A DNA stretch of 64,000 nucleotides from Mumia quercus. GTDB taxonomy: Bacteria; Actinomycetota; Actinomycetes; Propionibacteriales; Nocardioidaceae. Numbering within the stretch: the first letter of the stretch is position 1; every line of letters starts with the position of its first letter. The notes beneath the pieces were generated by a model. It ran no database searches and had not been told where the DNA came from. It was given only the letters and a program-made list of their open reading frames with translations. The position numbers and the translations under genes were made by a program. The stretch covers positions 342,074-406,073 of the forward strand of contig NZ_JANZYO010000001.1 in assembly GCF_025506335.1 (NCBI RefSeq), read 5' to 3'. This document shows, piece by piece, positions 28,219 through 57,330 of the stretch.

Positions 28219-28848
28219 ATGCCCGTGCAGTTCCAAGCCTCACTCTTCGACTCCGCCGACGAGCCGACCCTCGGGCCGGTTGCGGCCGGCCTCGAACGCC
28301 ACGAGCTGCCGCGCGGGGCGTGGGTCGACCTGCGGCCGCGCTGGGTCGACGGCGCGGACGACCTGTTCGCCCATCTCCACGACAACGTCGCGTGGCGTGC
28401 CGACGAGCGCGAGATGTACGAGCGTGTCGTCGCGGTGCCGCGGCTCCTCGCATGGTTCGGCGAGCGCTCGATCTGGCCCCACCCGCTGCTCGAACGCGCG
28501 CGCGAGGACCTTGGTGACCACTACGAGGGCGAGCTGGGGGAGCGGTTCTCCACGGCGGGCCTGTGCCTCTATCGCGACGGGCGCGACTCCGTCGCCTGGC
28601 ACGGTGACCGGATCGGCCGCAGCCGTACGCAGGACACGATGGTCGCGATCTTGTCCCTCGGATCTCCCCGCCGCCTCGCGCTGCGTCCTCGCGGCGGCGG
28701 CGAGTCACTGTCGTTCGCGCTCGGCTCCGGCGACCTCCTGGTGATGGGCGGCAGCTGCCAGCGCACGTGGGAGCACGCGATCCCGAAGACCGCCAAGCCT
28801 GTCGGGCCCCGTATCAGCGTCCAGTTCCGCCCCCGCGGCGTCCTCTGA
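28219..28848 (+). CDS. alkB: AlkB-family alpha-ketoglutarate-dependent dioxygenase
   Basis: Fe(II)/2-oxoglutarate enzyme that oxidatively removes alkyl groups from DNA or RNA bases. 209 residues, normal length. The iron ligands are His128 and Asp130 (WHGDRIG) and His186 (WEHAIPK); RISVQFR near 198-204 supplies the 2-oxoglutarate-binding arginines. LCLYRDGRDSVAWHGD and GDLLVMGGSCQRTWEH are typical of the bacterial branch. Controlled, on sequence grounds, by the SOS box at 28182-28197. The stop codon is followed at once by the first unit of the 83-bp repeat. Monocistronic as far as can be seen. Confidence 0.93.
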   Translation: MPVQFQASLFDSADEPTLGPVAAGLERHELPRGAWVDLRPRWVDGADDLFAHLHDNVAWRADEREMYERVVAVPRLLAWFGERSIWPHPLLERAREDLGDHYEGELGERFSTAGLCLYRDGRDSVAWHGDRIGRSRTQDTMVAILSLGSPRRLALRPRGGGESLSFALGSGDLLVMGGSCQRTWEHAIPKTAKPVGPRISVQFRPRGVL

Positions 28849-29079
28849 CGGCGCGTTGGTCGGTCTGTGGTCACCGCGGCGGCGGGCGTGACCACGGAGG
28901 CACCAACGCGTCCTGGCTCACCGGCGACTGACGGCGCGTTGGTCGGTCTGTGGTCACCGCGGCGGCGGGCGTGACCACGGAGGCACCAACGCGTCCTGGC
29001 TCACCGGCGTCTGACGGCGCGTTGGTCGGTCGGTGGTCACCGTGGCGGCGGGCGTGACCACGGAGGCACCAACGCGTCC
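28845..29079. repeat. 83-bp tandem repeat, three copies, each a nested palindrome
   Basis: Units start at 28845, 28928 and 29011 (period 83; the third is cut to 69 bases). Copies 1 and 2 are nearly identical; copy 3 differs at about two positions in the shared part. Each unit has a 59-base core (28852-28910, 28935-28993, 29018-29076): CGCGTTGGT, 6 nt, GTGGTCAC, 13 nt, GTGACCAC, 6 nt, ACCAACGCG. This fills the 302-nt gap between alkB (stop 28848) and the nuclease-like gene (start 29151); the rest of the gap shows no other feature. Confidence 0.95.
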
Positions 29080-29150
29080 ACAGCGTGGTCTGGTCCACAG
29101 GTCGTACGACGCCCCTGCCGTGGACGAGCGCGATCGGATGGGATGGCGGC

Positions 29151-30086
29151 ATGCCCGCGCCGCGCCCCATCCCGTACGAGCTGCGGCGCGGGCCGTTCAC
29201 GTCAGCGCAGGCGTACGCACTCGGGGTCACCCCGACGATGCTCGCCGGGAGCCGGTTCATCCGGCTGTTCCCCAGGGTCTGGGCAGCGCGCTCGTACGTG
29301 ATGTCCGAGCACGACCGGGTCCGCGCGGCGCAGCTCAGTCTCCCCGAGGGAGCCCTGCCGAGCCACACCACTCGACTACGGCTCCTGGGGTACGAGGACG
29401 CCCCCGCGACGCCGTACCACTTCGTGATCGACCGCGACCAGAAGATCGTCAGCAACGACATCCGACTCCACCGCACGCTCCTGATGCCGCCCACCGACGC
29501 GCACGGAGTGACCCCGGCGGCGGCCTTCGTGCAGTGCTGCGAGGTGATGCGGCTGATCGACCTGGTCAAGCTCGGGGACTGGCTCCTGCACCACGAGCAC
29601 GCCTCCCTCGAGGAGATCGGGCAACTGCTGGCCGACCAGCCGTGGCGGCCGGGCGTGCCGCAGTGCCAGACGGTCCTCCCCCTGCTCGACGCGCGCTCGC
29701 GCTCGCCCAAGGAGAGCGAGGTGCGCGTGATCCTGTGCGTGGTCGGGCTGCCGCTCCCGGAGGTGAACGTGGACCTGGTCGTGGACGGGCGCTGGCTCGG
29801 CTGCGTCGACCTGCTCTACCGCGCGTGGCTCTACGTCGTCGAGTACGAGGGACGCCAGCACGCGTTCGACACTGCCCAGTTCAACGGCGACATCGGACGG
29901 TACGGCCGATTCCGGCGCCGCGGCGTCACCTACCTGCAGGTCACGCAGGAGAGGCTGGCGCACCCGCGGACGCTCGCGGACGAGGTGTACGCCGACCTCG
30001 TCGGTCTCGGGTACGACGGCCCGCCGCCGGTGTTCGGGCGCGACTATCGCGCGCTGTTCCAGAAGATCCGCTCCCGCCGTCCGTAG
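29151..30086 (+). CDS. nuclease-like protein with DUF559/Vsr-type C-terminal domain
   Basis: A 311-residue protein. The C-terminal residues 180-280 resemble the PD-(D/E)XK fold of DUF559/very-short-patch-repair endonucleases: [11 protein letters not shown] (Glu188/190), GCVDLLY (Asp220), VVEYEGRQH (Glu231/233, His237) and [19 protein letters not shown]. The N-terminal 60 residues ([18 protein letters not shown]) look like the winged-helix AbiEi-type domain often found at this position in actinobacterial paralogues. Function is unknown: nuclease, toxin-antitoxin-like or defence roles are all possible. It is flanked by nested palindromic repeats on both sides (copy 3 ends 75 nt before it; copy 4 follows the next gene). 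Confidence 0.72.
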
Positions 30087-30091
30087 CGGCG

Positions 30092-30103
30092 TACGCTCGG
30101 CCC
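30092..30103 (+). promoter_or_regulatory. leaderless-type promoter of the DUF2200 gene
   Basis: TACGCT at 30092-30097 precedes the ATG at 30104 by 6 nt, with no ribosome-binding sequence between them. Confidence 0.55.
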
Positions 30104-30448
30104 ATGAGCCGGATCTTCACCGCCACCGTGGCGTCGGTCTACCCGCTGTACATCGCGAAGCTCGAGCGCAAGGGCCATACGAAGGCGGAGCTCGACCGGG
30201 TGATCGAGTGGCTCACCGGGTTCGACGAGGCGGCGCTCGAGAAGCACCTCGAGGCGGGGACCACGTTCGAGGACTTCTTTGCCGCAGCCCGCCTCAACCC
30301 CAAGGCCAAGCTGATCAAGGGCGTGGTGTGCGGGGTCCGCGTGGAAGACGTCGAGGATCCCTTGATGCAGAAGATCCGCTACCTCGACAAGCTCGTCGAC
30401 GAGCTCGCCAAGGGCAAAGCCGATCCCTGTGCACGCGTCGGTGCGTGA
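30104..30448 (+). CDS. DUF2200-family protein
   Basis: A small soluble protein of 114 residues. The stretches [33 protein letters not shown] and the patch [20 protein letters not shown] are conserved in DUF2200 proteins, found widely in bacteria, with no experimentally established role that I can name. It lacks signal peptide and membrane helices. A hairpin-forming repeat overlaps its stop codon, probably ending its transcript. Confidence 0.85.
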
Positions 30449-30492
30449 GTGGTCACCCGCCGCGCGCGGGTGACCACTCAGCGACCAACGCG
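30434..30492. repeat. fourth copy of the nested palindrome, also a bidirectional terminator
   Basis: CGCGTCGGT, 6 nt, GTGGTCAC, 13 nt, GTGACCAC, 6 nt, ACCAACGCG: the same 9-6-8-13-8-6-9 layout as the tandem copies 1.4 kb upstream, with one outer-arm mismatch. Pairing extends to a 15-bp perfect stem (30446-30460 with 30466-30480, 5-nt loop). It sits between the stops of the DUF2200 gene and typA and so can terminate both. Confidence 0.9.
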
Positions 30493-30500
30493 TGAGGGCG

Positions 30501-32375
30501 TCAGCCCTTCGGGCCGCGGCGCTTCGACCGGGCGCGCTCGCCGGCGTCCAGGATCACCTTGCGGATCCGGACGGCCGTCGGCGTCACCTCGACGCACTCG
30601 TCCTCGCGGCAGAACTCCAGGCTCTGCTCGAGCGAGAGCTTCTTCGGCGGGATCAGCTTCTCGAAGTTGTCGGCCGTGGAGGAGCGGACGTTCGTCTGCT
30701 TCTTCTCCTTGGTGATGTTGACGTCCATGTCGTCGTCGCGGCTGTTCTCGCCGACGATCATGCCCTCGTACACCTCGGTCGTCGGCTCCACGAACATCAC
30801 GCCGCGCTCCTGGAGGCTCGTCATCGCGTACGACGACGCGGCGCCCGCGCGGTCGGCGACGAGCGAGCCGGTCGGGCGGGTCGAGATCTCGCCCAGCCAC
30901 GGCTCGTACCCCTCGAACACGTGGTGCGCGATGCCGGTGCCGCGGGTGTCGGTGAGGAACTCCGTACGGAAGCCGATCAGGCCGCGCGCCGGGACCAGGA
31001 ACTCCATGCGGACCCAGCCGGTGCCGTGGTTCGTCATCTGCTCCATGCGGCCCTTGCGGACCGCGAGCAGCTGCGTGACGGTGCCGAGGTACTCCTCGGG
31101 GCAGTCGATCGTCAGGCGCTCGACCGGCTCGTGGACCTTGCCGTCGACGAGACGCGTGACGACCTCGGGCTTGCCGACGGTCAGCTCGTAGCCCTCGCGG
31201 CGCATCTGCTCGACGAGAATCGCGAGCGCGAGCTCGCCACGGCCCTGGACCTCCCACGCGTCGGGACGCTCGGTCGGCAGCACCTTGATCGACACGTTGC
31301 CGATCAGCTCGCGCTCGAGACGGTCCTTGACGAGACGGGCGGTGACCTTCGTGCCCTTCTCGCGCCCGGCCAGCGGCGAGGTGTTGGTGCCGATCGTCAT
31401 CGAGATCGCGGGCTCGTCGACCTGGATGAGGGGGAGCGGCTGCGGGTTCTCGGGGTCGGCGAGCGTCTCGCCGATCATGATCTCCGGGATGCCGGCGACC
31501 GCGACGATGTCGCCCGGGTTCGCCTCCTCCGCGGGGACCCGCTCGAGCTCCACCGTGCGGAGCAGCTCGGTGATCTTGACGCGCTCGACCGAGCCGTCGC
31601 GCTTGCACCACGCGACCTGGGCGCCCTTGCGCAGCGTGCCCTCGTGGACCCGGATCAGCGCGAGGCGGCCGAGGAACGGCGAGGCGTCGAGGTTGGTGAC
31701 GTGGGCCTGGAGCGGCGCGTCCTCGGTGTAGGTCGGTGCGGGCACCGTGTCGAGGATCGTCTGGAACAGCGGGACCAGGTCCTCGCTGTCCGGGAGGCCG
31801 CCGTCGGCAGGCTGCTCCAGCGACGCGCGTCCGGCCTTCGCGGAGGCGTACACGACAGGGAAGTCCAACCCCGTGGCGTCGGTCGAGTCGTCGAGCAGGT
31901 CCATGAAGAGCTCGTACGTCTCCTCGACGACCTCGCTGATGCGGGCGTCGGGACGGTCGACCTTGTTGACGACGAGGACGACCGGCATCTTCGCGTGGAG
32001 CGCCTTGCGGAGCACGAACCGCGTCTGCGGCAGGGGACCCTCGGAGGCGTCGACGAGCAGCACGACGCCGTCGACCATGGAGAGCCCGCGCTCGACCTCG
32101 CCACCGAAGTCGGCGTGGCCGGGGGTGTCGATGATGTTGATGGTGACGCCGCCGTCAGGGGCGCCGGGGCCGGCGTACGAGACCGCGGTGTTCTTCGCGA
32201 GGATCGTGATGCCCTTCTCGCGCTCGAGGTCGCCGGAGTCCATCACGCGCTCGGCGAGCTGGTGGTGCTCGTCGAACGTGCCCTGCTGCTGCAGCATGGC
32301 GTCGACGAGGGTGGTCTTGCCGTGGTCGACGTGCGCGACGATTGCGACGTTGCGGAGGTCGGAACGAGTGGGCAT
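30501..32375 (-). CDS. typA: translational GTPase TypA/BipA
   Basis: Ribosome-associated GTPase involved in assembly and stress adaptation. 624 residues, the usual size. G domain motifs: NVAIVAHVDHGKTTLVDAML (G1, residues 9-28), GITILAKNT (G2), DTPGHADFGGE (G3), NKVDRPDAR (G4), ASAKAG (G5). Elongation-factor-like domains follow, then the TypA-specific C-terminus with its basic end. ATG 32375 is chosen; the open frame continues upstream but loses all similarity. A TAGGAT box at 32441-32446 on this strand would give a leader of about 60 nt. Convergent with the DUF2200 gene. Confidence 0.95.
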   Translation of the reverse strand: MPTRSDLRNVAIVAHVDHGKTTLVDAMLQQQGTFDEHHQLAERVMDSGDLEREKGITILAKNTAVSYAGPGAPDGGVTINIIDTPGHADFGGEVERGLSMVDGVVLLVDASEGPLPQTRFVLRKALHAKMPVVLVVNKVDRPDARISEVVEETYELFMDLLDDSTDATGLDFPVVYASAKAGRASLEQPADGGLPDSEDLVPLFQTILDTVPAPTYTEDAPLQAHVTNLDASPFLGRLALIRVHEGTLRKGAQVAWCKRDGSVERVKITELLRTVELERVPAEEANPGDIVAVAGIPEIMIGETLADPENPQPLPLIQVDEPAISMTIGTNTSPLAGREKGTKVTARLVKDRLERELIGNVSIKVLPTERPDAWEVQGRGELALAILVEQMRREGYELTVGKPEVVTRLVDGKVHEPVERLTIDCPEEYLGTVTQLLAVRKGRMEQMTNHGTGWVRMEFLVPARGLIGFRTEFLTDTRGTGIAHHVFEGYEPWLGEISTRPTGSLVADRAGAASSYAMTSLQERGVMFVEPTTEVYEGMIVGENSRDDDMDVNITKEKKQTNVRSSTADNFEKLIPPKKLSLEQSLEFCREDECVEVTPTAVRIRKVILDAGERARSKRRGPKG

Positions 32376-57259: not shown

Positions 57260-57330
57260 CGTCCCCGATTTGGGCACCAATCCACCGAATCGGGGCGGGA
57301 TTCGGTGGGGAACCGCCCGAATCGGGGACG
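57260..57330. repeat. nested palindrome (second type), probable terminator
   Basis: Outer arms of 16 nt (57260-57275 with 57315-57330, one mismatch), 6-nt gaps, inner arms of 10 nt (57282-57291 with 57299-57308, perfect) and a 7-nt loop. It lies 15 nt after the TPR gene and 42 nt before the flavin dehydrogenase. The remaining intergenic bases show nothing else. Confidence 0.85.

Follow-up and report, generated by a model that had tools for sequence, protein, structure and literature searches.

The window analysed here is a 64,000-nt stretch of the Mumia quercus genome, in which a tandem array of palindromes begins directly after the stop codon of a plus-strand gene for an alkB-like 2OG-Fe(II) oxygenase (28219..28848). 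The array comprises three contiguous 83-nt units (28845-28927, 28928-29010, and 29011-29093), each holding a 59-nt core with two nested arm pairs, 6-nt gaps, and a 13-nt loop. Based on unit comparison and a covariance model, these cores, which we call type-A palindromes, lie without assigned strand at 28852..28910, 28935..28993, and 29018..29076, the first of them 3 nt from the alkB stop codon (28848). The spacing 9-6-8-13-8-6-9 is exact in all array cores, which confirms the description given by an earlier, sequence-only reading of this DNA (three 83-bp tandem units of that layout behind alkB), and the array stands above chance. The motif GTTGGTN6GTGGTCAC has 7 exact matches in the window, 6 of them within the array; when up to 3 mismatches are allowed, there are 14 matches against a shuffle mean of 5.75, and 0/100 shuffles reach 14. 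Across the genome, 7 places match the complete pattern of both arms, compared with 0 for the reversed control, and unit 1, folded as a single strand, beats its shuffles on both the plus (z -2.95) and the minus strand (z -2.05).

The same reading had noted the near-identity of copies 1 and 2, which measures 99% over the 83 nt; unit 3 is 82% identical to unit 1 over the same length. The core of unit 3 has only two differences (a gap position and a loop position), and its remaining differences lie in the linker 3′ of the core. The reading was also right that the array is not a CRISPR, since the 83-mers are contiguous, the linkers repeat as well, and no unique spacers lie between repeats, and that it is not a plain terminator, as a scan of 28700-30700 found 0 terminators of the U-tract type; a sigma-70 promoter scan of the same region likewise found nothing. 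Its view that the 6-nt gaps are inherently unpaired did not hold, because partial or full pairing is seen in other copies (e.g., GCCTGG/CCAGGC at G000:C6:49920, G000 being the M. quercus genome). At the orthologous locus of Mumia xiangluensis there is one unit, compared with three in M. quercus, i.e., the number of units varies between Mumia species. An assembly artefact may affect the count of three and would leave the dispersed family described below untouched.

This earlier account of the array is supported in part. It missed the partner gene directly downstream (29151..30086, plus strand), which encodes a 311-aa protein and leads to our main result. Profiles assign to it an AbiEi-like domain (aa 11-111) and a C-terminal Vsr/DUF559-like PD-(D/E)XK nuclease; the domain roles rest on these profiles, the structure model, with a pLDDT of 40, being unusable. 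The AbiEi profile matches the window protein over aa 11-111 with an E-value of 1.6e-9, and 31/39 family members match with the best model. The nuclease part of the window protein has no Pfam match up to an E-value of 10. Across the family, 21/39 members match REase_MTES_1575 and 18/39 match DUF559 at 1e-3, the window member matching neither; PMC3710099 places the MTES_1575 domain among the Vsr-type REases. When the PDB was searched with a profile of the family alignment, two weak matches were obtained, to 3hrl (E 0.0023) and 3r3p (E 0.0031), and a search with the window protein alone gave no PDB match. We take 3r3p to be the homing endonuclease entered as 'Mobile intron protein'. In the 39-sequence alignment, S185, E188, R192, D220, and D247 are invariant and E231 is nearly so; the catalytic residues among these six are assumed by analogy with PD-(D/E)XK nucleases. 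Judged from the alignment, the nuclease core appears intact across the 39 members.

A search of genome contigs with the protein neighbouring the array found one relative, in M. xiangluensis (79% identical). Homologs of the nuclease were present in 8/8 genomes searched. Within its own family, the Nocardioidaceae, 96/294 genomes hold homologs at E <= 1e-40, and a search of the phylum at E <= 1e-25 found them in 11/396 genomes, our own included. No AbiEii nucleotidyltransferase toxin adjoins the gene, both tested neighbours being other genes, the alkB-like 2OG-Fe(II) oxygenase and DUF2200 (30104..30448, plus strand). The stop codon of DUF2200 lies inside a further type-A palindrome (30434..30492, no assigned strand), which is located between the convergent DUF2200 and typA genes and has orthologous sites in two other genomes, G001 and G003.

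Dispersed copies and arm subtypes

A type-A covariance model built from 15 copies found 18 places in the M. quercus genome, both strands matching at every one of them (36 matches at E <= 2.1e-6), and one additional match at E 0.75; counting the array once gives 16 loci. Matches at E <= 0.01 were found in 7/30 genomes searched, five of them in the genus (our own included) and two, both weak, outside it. The sequence-only reading had listed a REP/MITE-like element among its candidate roles and had taken an absence of further copies as grounds against its view; the 18 places, with more in relatives, show the opposite and support a dispersed element. All 31 half-site matches with up to 1 mismatch in the M. 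quercus genome sit inside paired sites, with no lone half-sites, and the idea of an uptake sequence was rejected on that ground. Rfam gave 0 matches above the gathering cut-off in the window, and neither Rfam nor the open-access literature searched contradicts the reading's statement that no named actinobacterial family has this layout.

The 59-nt layout is kept in 17/18 type-A sites, the weakest site (C10:125350) being 58 nt long. In 16 sequences, from which array copy 2 and the C10:125350 site were left out, the information content per column is 1.3-1.6 bits in the arms, 0.6-0.7 in the gaps, and 0.24 in the loop, i.e., the 13-nt loop is fixed in length and nearly random in sequence. In six orthologous comparisons, which leave out the pairs of differing type described below, L084/L091, and the atypical L025/L090/L095 site, arms agree at 188/204 positions and loops at 30/78. 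It follows that the dispersed copies are old and that their arms are kept by selection or conversion. The expansion had been read as recent or maintained; this holds for the tandem copies, which alone look recent. Covariation is weak in types A and B, with most pairs hardly varying, and RNA structure was therefore rejected as the main constraint. The atypical site (L025:2451-2508, L090:2512-2570, and L095:2512-2570) matches the family weakly, has a loop that is partly conserved across species, and is perhaps a different element.

Among the subtypes the layout is invariant, and it is the inner arm that varies (GTGGTCAC, GCGTCCAC, GGTCCCAC, GCAACCAC, and GGCACCAC). A model of type B, with inner arm GCGTCCAC, enlarged the family, with matches in 5/78 genomes at E <= 0.001. 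Counting only sites found by the type-A and type-B models, G000 holds 18 A and 2 C; G001, 16 A and 14 B; G003, 2 A, 11 B, 1 C, and 5 other; G010, 6 D and 7 other; G030, 9 B, 2 E, and 2 other; and G002 and G004 each hold one A and one other, all weak. The type-B sites of G003 (n=11) and G030 (n=9) occur in genomes whose homologs were only partly fetched and among which a type-B gene was not found, so that sites and genes correspond imperfectly. Two orthologous sites differ in type (L016 A / L082 B and L062 A / L133 B), which calls for in-place replacement or for repeated insertion at one spot. Two type-B sites of G001, at C1:62803 (L079) and C8:23343 (L080), are exact reverse complements with like neighbours, and may be a duplication or one site assembled twice. 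Besides the 59-nt type, G010 contains 46-nt hairpins of the GTCGGTGCCTCAGCG... type with small loops (L118, L122-L125, and L099), which perhaps form a family derived from it.

Palindromes beside nuclease genes

By eye and by scan, most of the nuclease genes considered have palindromes of the same type on both sides; the type is common to close orthologs and differs between paralogs. The flanks were compared by the best ungapped 23-mer match between the 300 nt upstream and the 300 nt downstream of each gene, with a threshold of at least 19. In the exploratory set 47/60 loci reached 19, compared with 3/60 windows displaced by 700 nt and 8/240 swapped pairs. In a hold-out set, fetched later and scored by the same measure, 35/39 did so, compared with 8/38 windows displaced by 500 nt and 28/195 swapped pairs; thirteen of the 60 exploratory and four of the 39 hold-out loci thus fall below the threshold. 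The exploratory test, like the co-divergence comparison below, leaves out L167 and L182 (partial matches), L183, L197, and L214. The hold-out comprised 40 further loci down the homolog list, of which L296 was dropped; passed over were the second genes of G137, G146, G173, and G183, G035 (in the set already), G179:C300, and, for internal stops, G166:C35 and G252. Rows of the palindrome finder that were unused are L153 upstream (array linker), L162 upstream (a C/G run), L153 downstream, and L180 downstream (weak, score 6.8).

The exploratory set includes 10 loci from the phylum search, two of which (L208 and L218) belong to the window's own family. Seven of the eight loci from other families score at least 19 (L209 21, L210 21, L211 22, L212 22, L215 21, L216 22, and L217 19) and the eighth, L213, scores 17; at L209 and L211 the best single palindromes differ between the sides despite the flank scores. 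The window's own nuclease locus scores only 16, its gene having palindromes within 300 nt on one side only and the next one beyond DUF2200. Long runs of C and G, possibly an assembly artefact, precede the type-C nuclease gene of M. quercus by about 320 nt (L162, G000:C12) and may hide an upstream palindrome. We regard the association between gene and palindrome as real with very little doubt. It might have been a neutral by-product if tolerant intergenic spots collect nuclease genes and palindromes alike; both are indeed intergenic, and IS-like insertions use the same spots in G472, but own flanks match far more than displaced or swapped ones, and this explanation seems to us very improbable.

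Within Mumia, nuclease genes sit at orthologous loci. The alkB locus is occupied in G000, G001, and G004, and in G003 a remnant of the nuclease gene remains between alkB and DUF2200 (L087:1858-2060), in which, by eye, the outer arm and gap of the left palindrome are joined to the last part of the gene. A second orthologous locus is found in five genomes, with arms GGTCCCAC in four and GTTCCCAC in G004, and a third, also in five genomes, differs in its inner arms. When the upstream flank of one gene was matched with the downstream flank of another, the share of comparisons reaching at least 19 was 79% at 75%+ protein identity (n=24), 26% at 65-75% (n=86), 15% at 55-65% (n=128), 4% at 45-55% (n=814), 3.5% at 35-45% (n=460), and 2% below 35% (n=1716). 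The two flanks of one locus match at a mean of 20.15 of 23. Since cross-gene matches fall with identity and own flanks keep this mean, we conclude that the arms diverge rapidly from one nuclease to another but remain similar on the two sides of a given gene.

A second nuclease gene of the M. quercus genome (G000:C7:486254-487135), 34-35% identical to the window protein, carries its own palindrome, of the CCCGTCCCCGATTTGGGCAC... type, on both sides. A search for this second-family palindrome gave 21 matches in the genome; the places considered were 10 dispersed ones and two beside the gene, one weak match being left out, and of the 10 away from the gene, 9 fall between genes and one within a predicted gene. 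Within the window, a second-family palindrome (CGTCCCCGATTTGGGCAC... type, no assigned strand, ends set by eye) is located at 57260..57330, about 15 nt behind a plus-strand gene. In the same genome, type C is found next to the type-C nuclease gene and once elsewhere. A single genome can hold, as this one does, at least two nuclease/palindrome families.

In G472, from another actinobacterial family, half-sites GCAGACGCAAANGYCCCC with up to 1 mismatch number 60 and 52 on the two strands, and the control 0. Nineteen of 21 seemingly single half-sites have a partner at about the same spacing. The two partnerless ones (L300 and L304) may also be interrupted by an IS. At six places chosen for their spacing (L240-L245), IS-like DNA of 1.65-1.67 kb stands between the two half-sites, and its inner ends suggest two kinds of IS-like element. 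We recounted changes over 51 paired sites, namely 32 listed pairs and the 19/21 single half-sites with a readable partner, three single half-sites being left out. Thirty-six changes from the commonest half-site are common to both halves, compared with 4.6 on average and at most 14 in 1000 shuffles, which ignore relatedness; the halves of one site disagree at 57 positions. An earlier subset of 15 elements was biased, having been made up of elements with matching halves and having omitted 9 listed unequal pairs; it had given two-sided changes in 15/28 pairs (0/500 shuffles) and no one-sided change in the outer 25 pairs. The argument from a lack of one-sided changes is withdrawn in view of the 57 disagreeing positions over 51 sites. 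The large excess of shared changes over shuffles persists in the recount, from which we conclude that the halves of a site evolve jointly, either because selection acts on the palindrome or because one arm converts the other.

Position relative to genes

The palindromes are concentrated behind genes. In G000, G001, and G003, 47/67 sites lie within 25 nt of a facing stop codon (15/18, 19/30, and 13/19, respectively), compared with 12.4% of random intergenic placements. This test used a simple codon-usage gene caller and counted the array once; the null placements are not independent, and a p-value would be indicative only. Divergent gaps hold 2/18 of the G000 sites, compared with 47% of random intergenic placements.

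Such a distribution would be expected if the palindromes were bidirectional terminators or mRNA 3′-end hairpins conserved as such, with the nuclease association secondary. The sites behind stops and in convergent gaps agree with this, as do the folding of both strands beyond shuffles and the changes common to both halves in G472. However, a terminator needs neither shared sequence among sites nor a free loop of fixed length, nor would it need arm types that differ between nucleases and a matched pair around nuclease genes, and the locus lacks a terminator of the U-tract type. We consider this explanation unlikely.

The AbiEi domain could alternatively be that of a repressor that autoregulates via the palindromes and controls a dispersed regulon, the nuclease being used elsewhere. 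AbiEi antitoxins bind two 23-bp inverted repeats and autoregulate through them, according to the available part of PMC7319586, and one of the two matched palindromes does lie upstream of the gene. The second flanking copy, however, lies downstream of it, and the dispersed sites are mainly downstream of genes, with the deficit in divergent gaps given above, so that an operator role of this kind is improbable.

A proposed mechanism and its relation to known systems

In our preferred interpretation, the units are probably REPIN-like copies of a palindrome that belongs to the adjoining nuclease, which would most likely act as a dimer over the spacer, its sites being spread by repair. The palindrome would be read as two 23-nt half-sites in inverted orientation, separated by a 13-nt spacer that is constant in length and unconstrained in sequence. 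This layout, together with the DNA-binding and nuclease domains of the protein, suggests a dimer that acts in the spacer; two monomers would bind the two half-sites and their nuclease domains would, most likely, meet over it. We infer this geometry, and cutting as such, from that combination. Breaks in the spacer would be repaired from other copies, whereby the site would spread and copies would stay alike, and the same repair would keep both flanking palindromes in step as the specificity of the protein drifts. The sites that persist would be chiefly those directly after a stop codon, a position in which a symmetric hairpin may be harmless, or useful as a two-way transcript end.

These steps differ in how far we trust them. 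The protein very probably recognises the palindrome, the host likely uses it as a transcript end, and we incline, with some hesitation, to the view that the protein spreads or homogenises it. That the duplex is cut within the spacer we suggest tentatively. A chromosomal nuclease that cut 18 of its own sites would be costly, and it must therefore be restrained, or nick, or only bind. With similar reserve we put forward the fuller version, in which an AbiEi-Vsr-type dimer, selfish or domesticated, would recognise its own palindrome as duplex, cut the spacer, and keep its sites in concerted evolution. Within that same version, inner-arm specificity could conceivably have been reprogrammed repeatedly at fixed loci, which would provide a natural series of protein-DNA specificities. 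If the interpretation is true, actinobacterial AbiEi-DUF559-like genes of unknown function acquire a proposed role, and a collection of proteins that co-vary with their target sites is already available.

In the open-access literature, a scope that leaves preprints and most subscription papers outside, we found no description of such a pairing of nuclease and palindrome; open-access papers on DUF559 with palindromes, or on MTES_1575, include none about such palindromes, judged by their listings. We propose that this is an undescribed kind of nuclease-and-repeat system, a new class of palindrome plus nuclease. The putative cutting within a fixed-length spacer between two half-sites is shared with engineered zinc-finger and TALE nuclease pairs. 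Integron attC sites have two nested arm pairs, unpaired spacers, and a variable end loop, the same layout as here, but the present copies are scattered, with none seen in cassette arrays. Vsr-like nucleases and 3r3p show weak profile similarity in the nuclease domain; they differ in that ours is a solitary gene among ordinary neighbours, occupies the same loci in several Mumia species, and has many intact target-like sites in its own genome. The operators of AbiE type IV toxin-antitoxin systems share the N-terminal AbiEi domain and, in the accessible portion of their description, the 23-bp inverted half-sites. In our case, however, a C-terminal nuclease replaces the antitoxin domain, the neighbours are alkB-like and DUF2200 rather than an AbiEii toxin, and the sites are dispersed, mostly behind genes, with a spacer of 13 compared with the 3 given there for AbiE.

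One enzyme family, RAYT, is the usual partner of REP-type repeats, and REPIN/RAYT systems, treated in PMC3733652, PMC8049555, and PMC8266576 (each available in part), are nearest to ours in behaviour. Their repeats are extragenic and end in conserved, inverted sequences, and the spacer between these, though less conserved, retains its length and its hairpin (PMC3116915); this layout is found here too, with a variable spacer of set length, extragenic sites, and a link to an enzyme gene that has repeats beside it. REPs are also known IS targets, in what is accessible of PMC1525189, as are the G472 palindromes. The likeness would permit the palindromes to be ordinary REPs or REPINs moved by a RAYT-type HUH transposase. 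Against this, no RAYT (Y1_Tnp, PF01797) was found at E <= 0.001 in 6 genus genomes (0/6), the control search being positive in 5/14 genomes, and the flanked enzyme, AbiEi plus PD-(D/E)XK, is non-homologous to the HUH/Y1 enzyme of RAYT. The GTAG tag is absent from the A1 arms (CGTC stands at columns 3-6 in 3/15 only), the half-sites in the M. quercus genome are symmetric and 23 nt long, and the system is found in actinobacteria. We regard an origin through RAYT as extremely improbable and, because that enzyme was not found in the genus, do not file the present system as a REPIN/RAYT member. Stem-loop families have been catalogued in mycobacteria (PMC2267715, in the part available). A system of the proposed kind may explain dispersed actinobacterial palindromes that resemble terminators. 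If our interpretation is true, a second nuclease family, unrelated to RAYT, has repeats of its own, and partnerships of palindrome and enzyme arose more than once.
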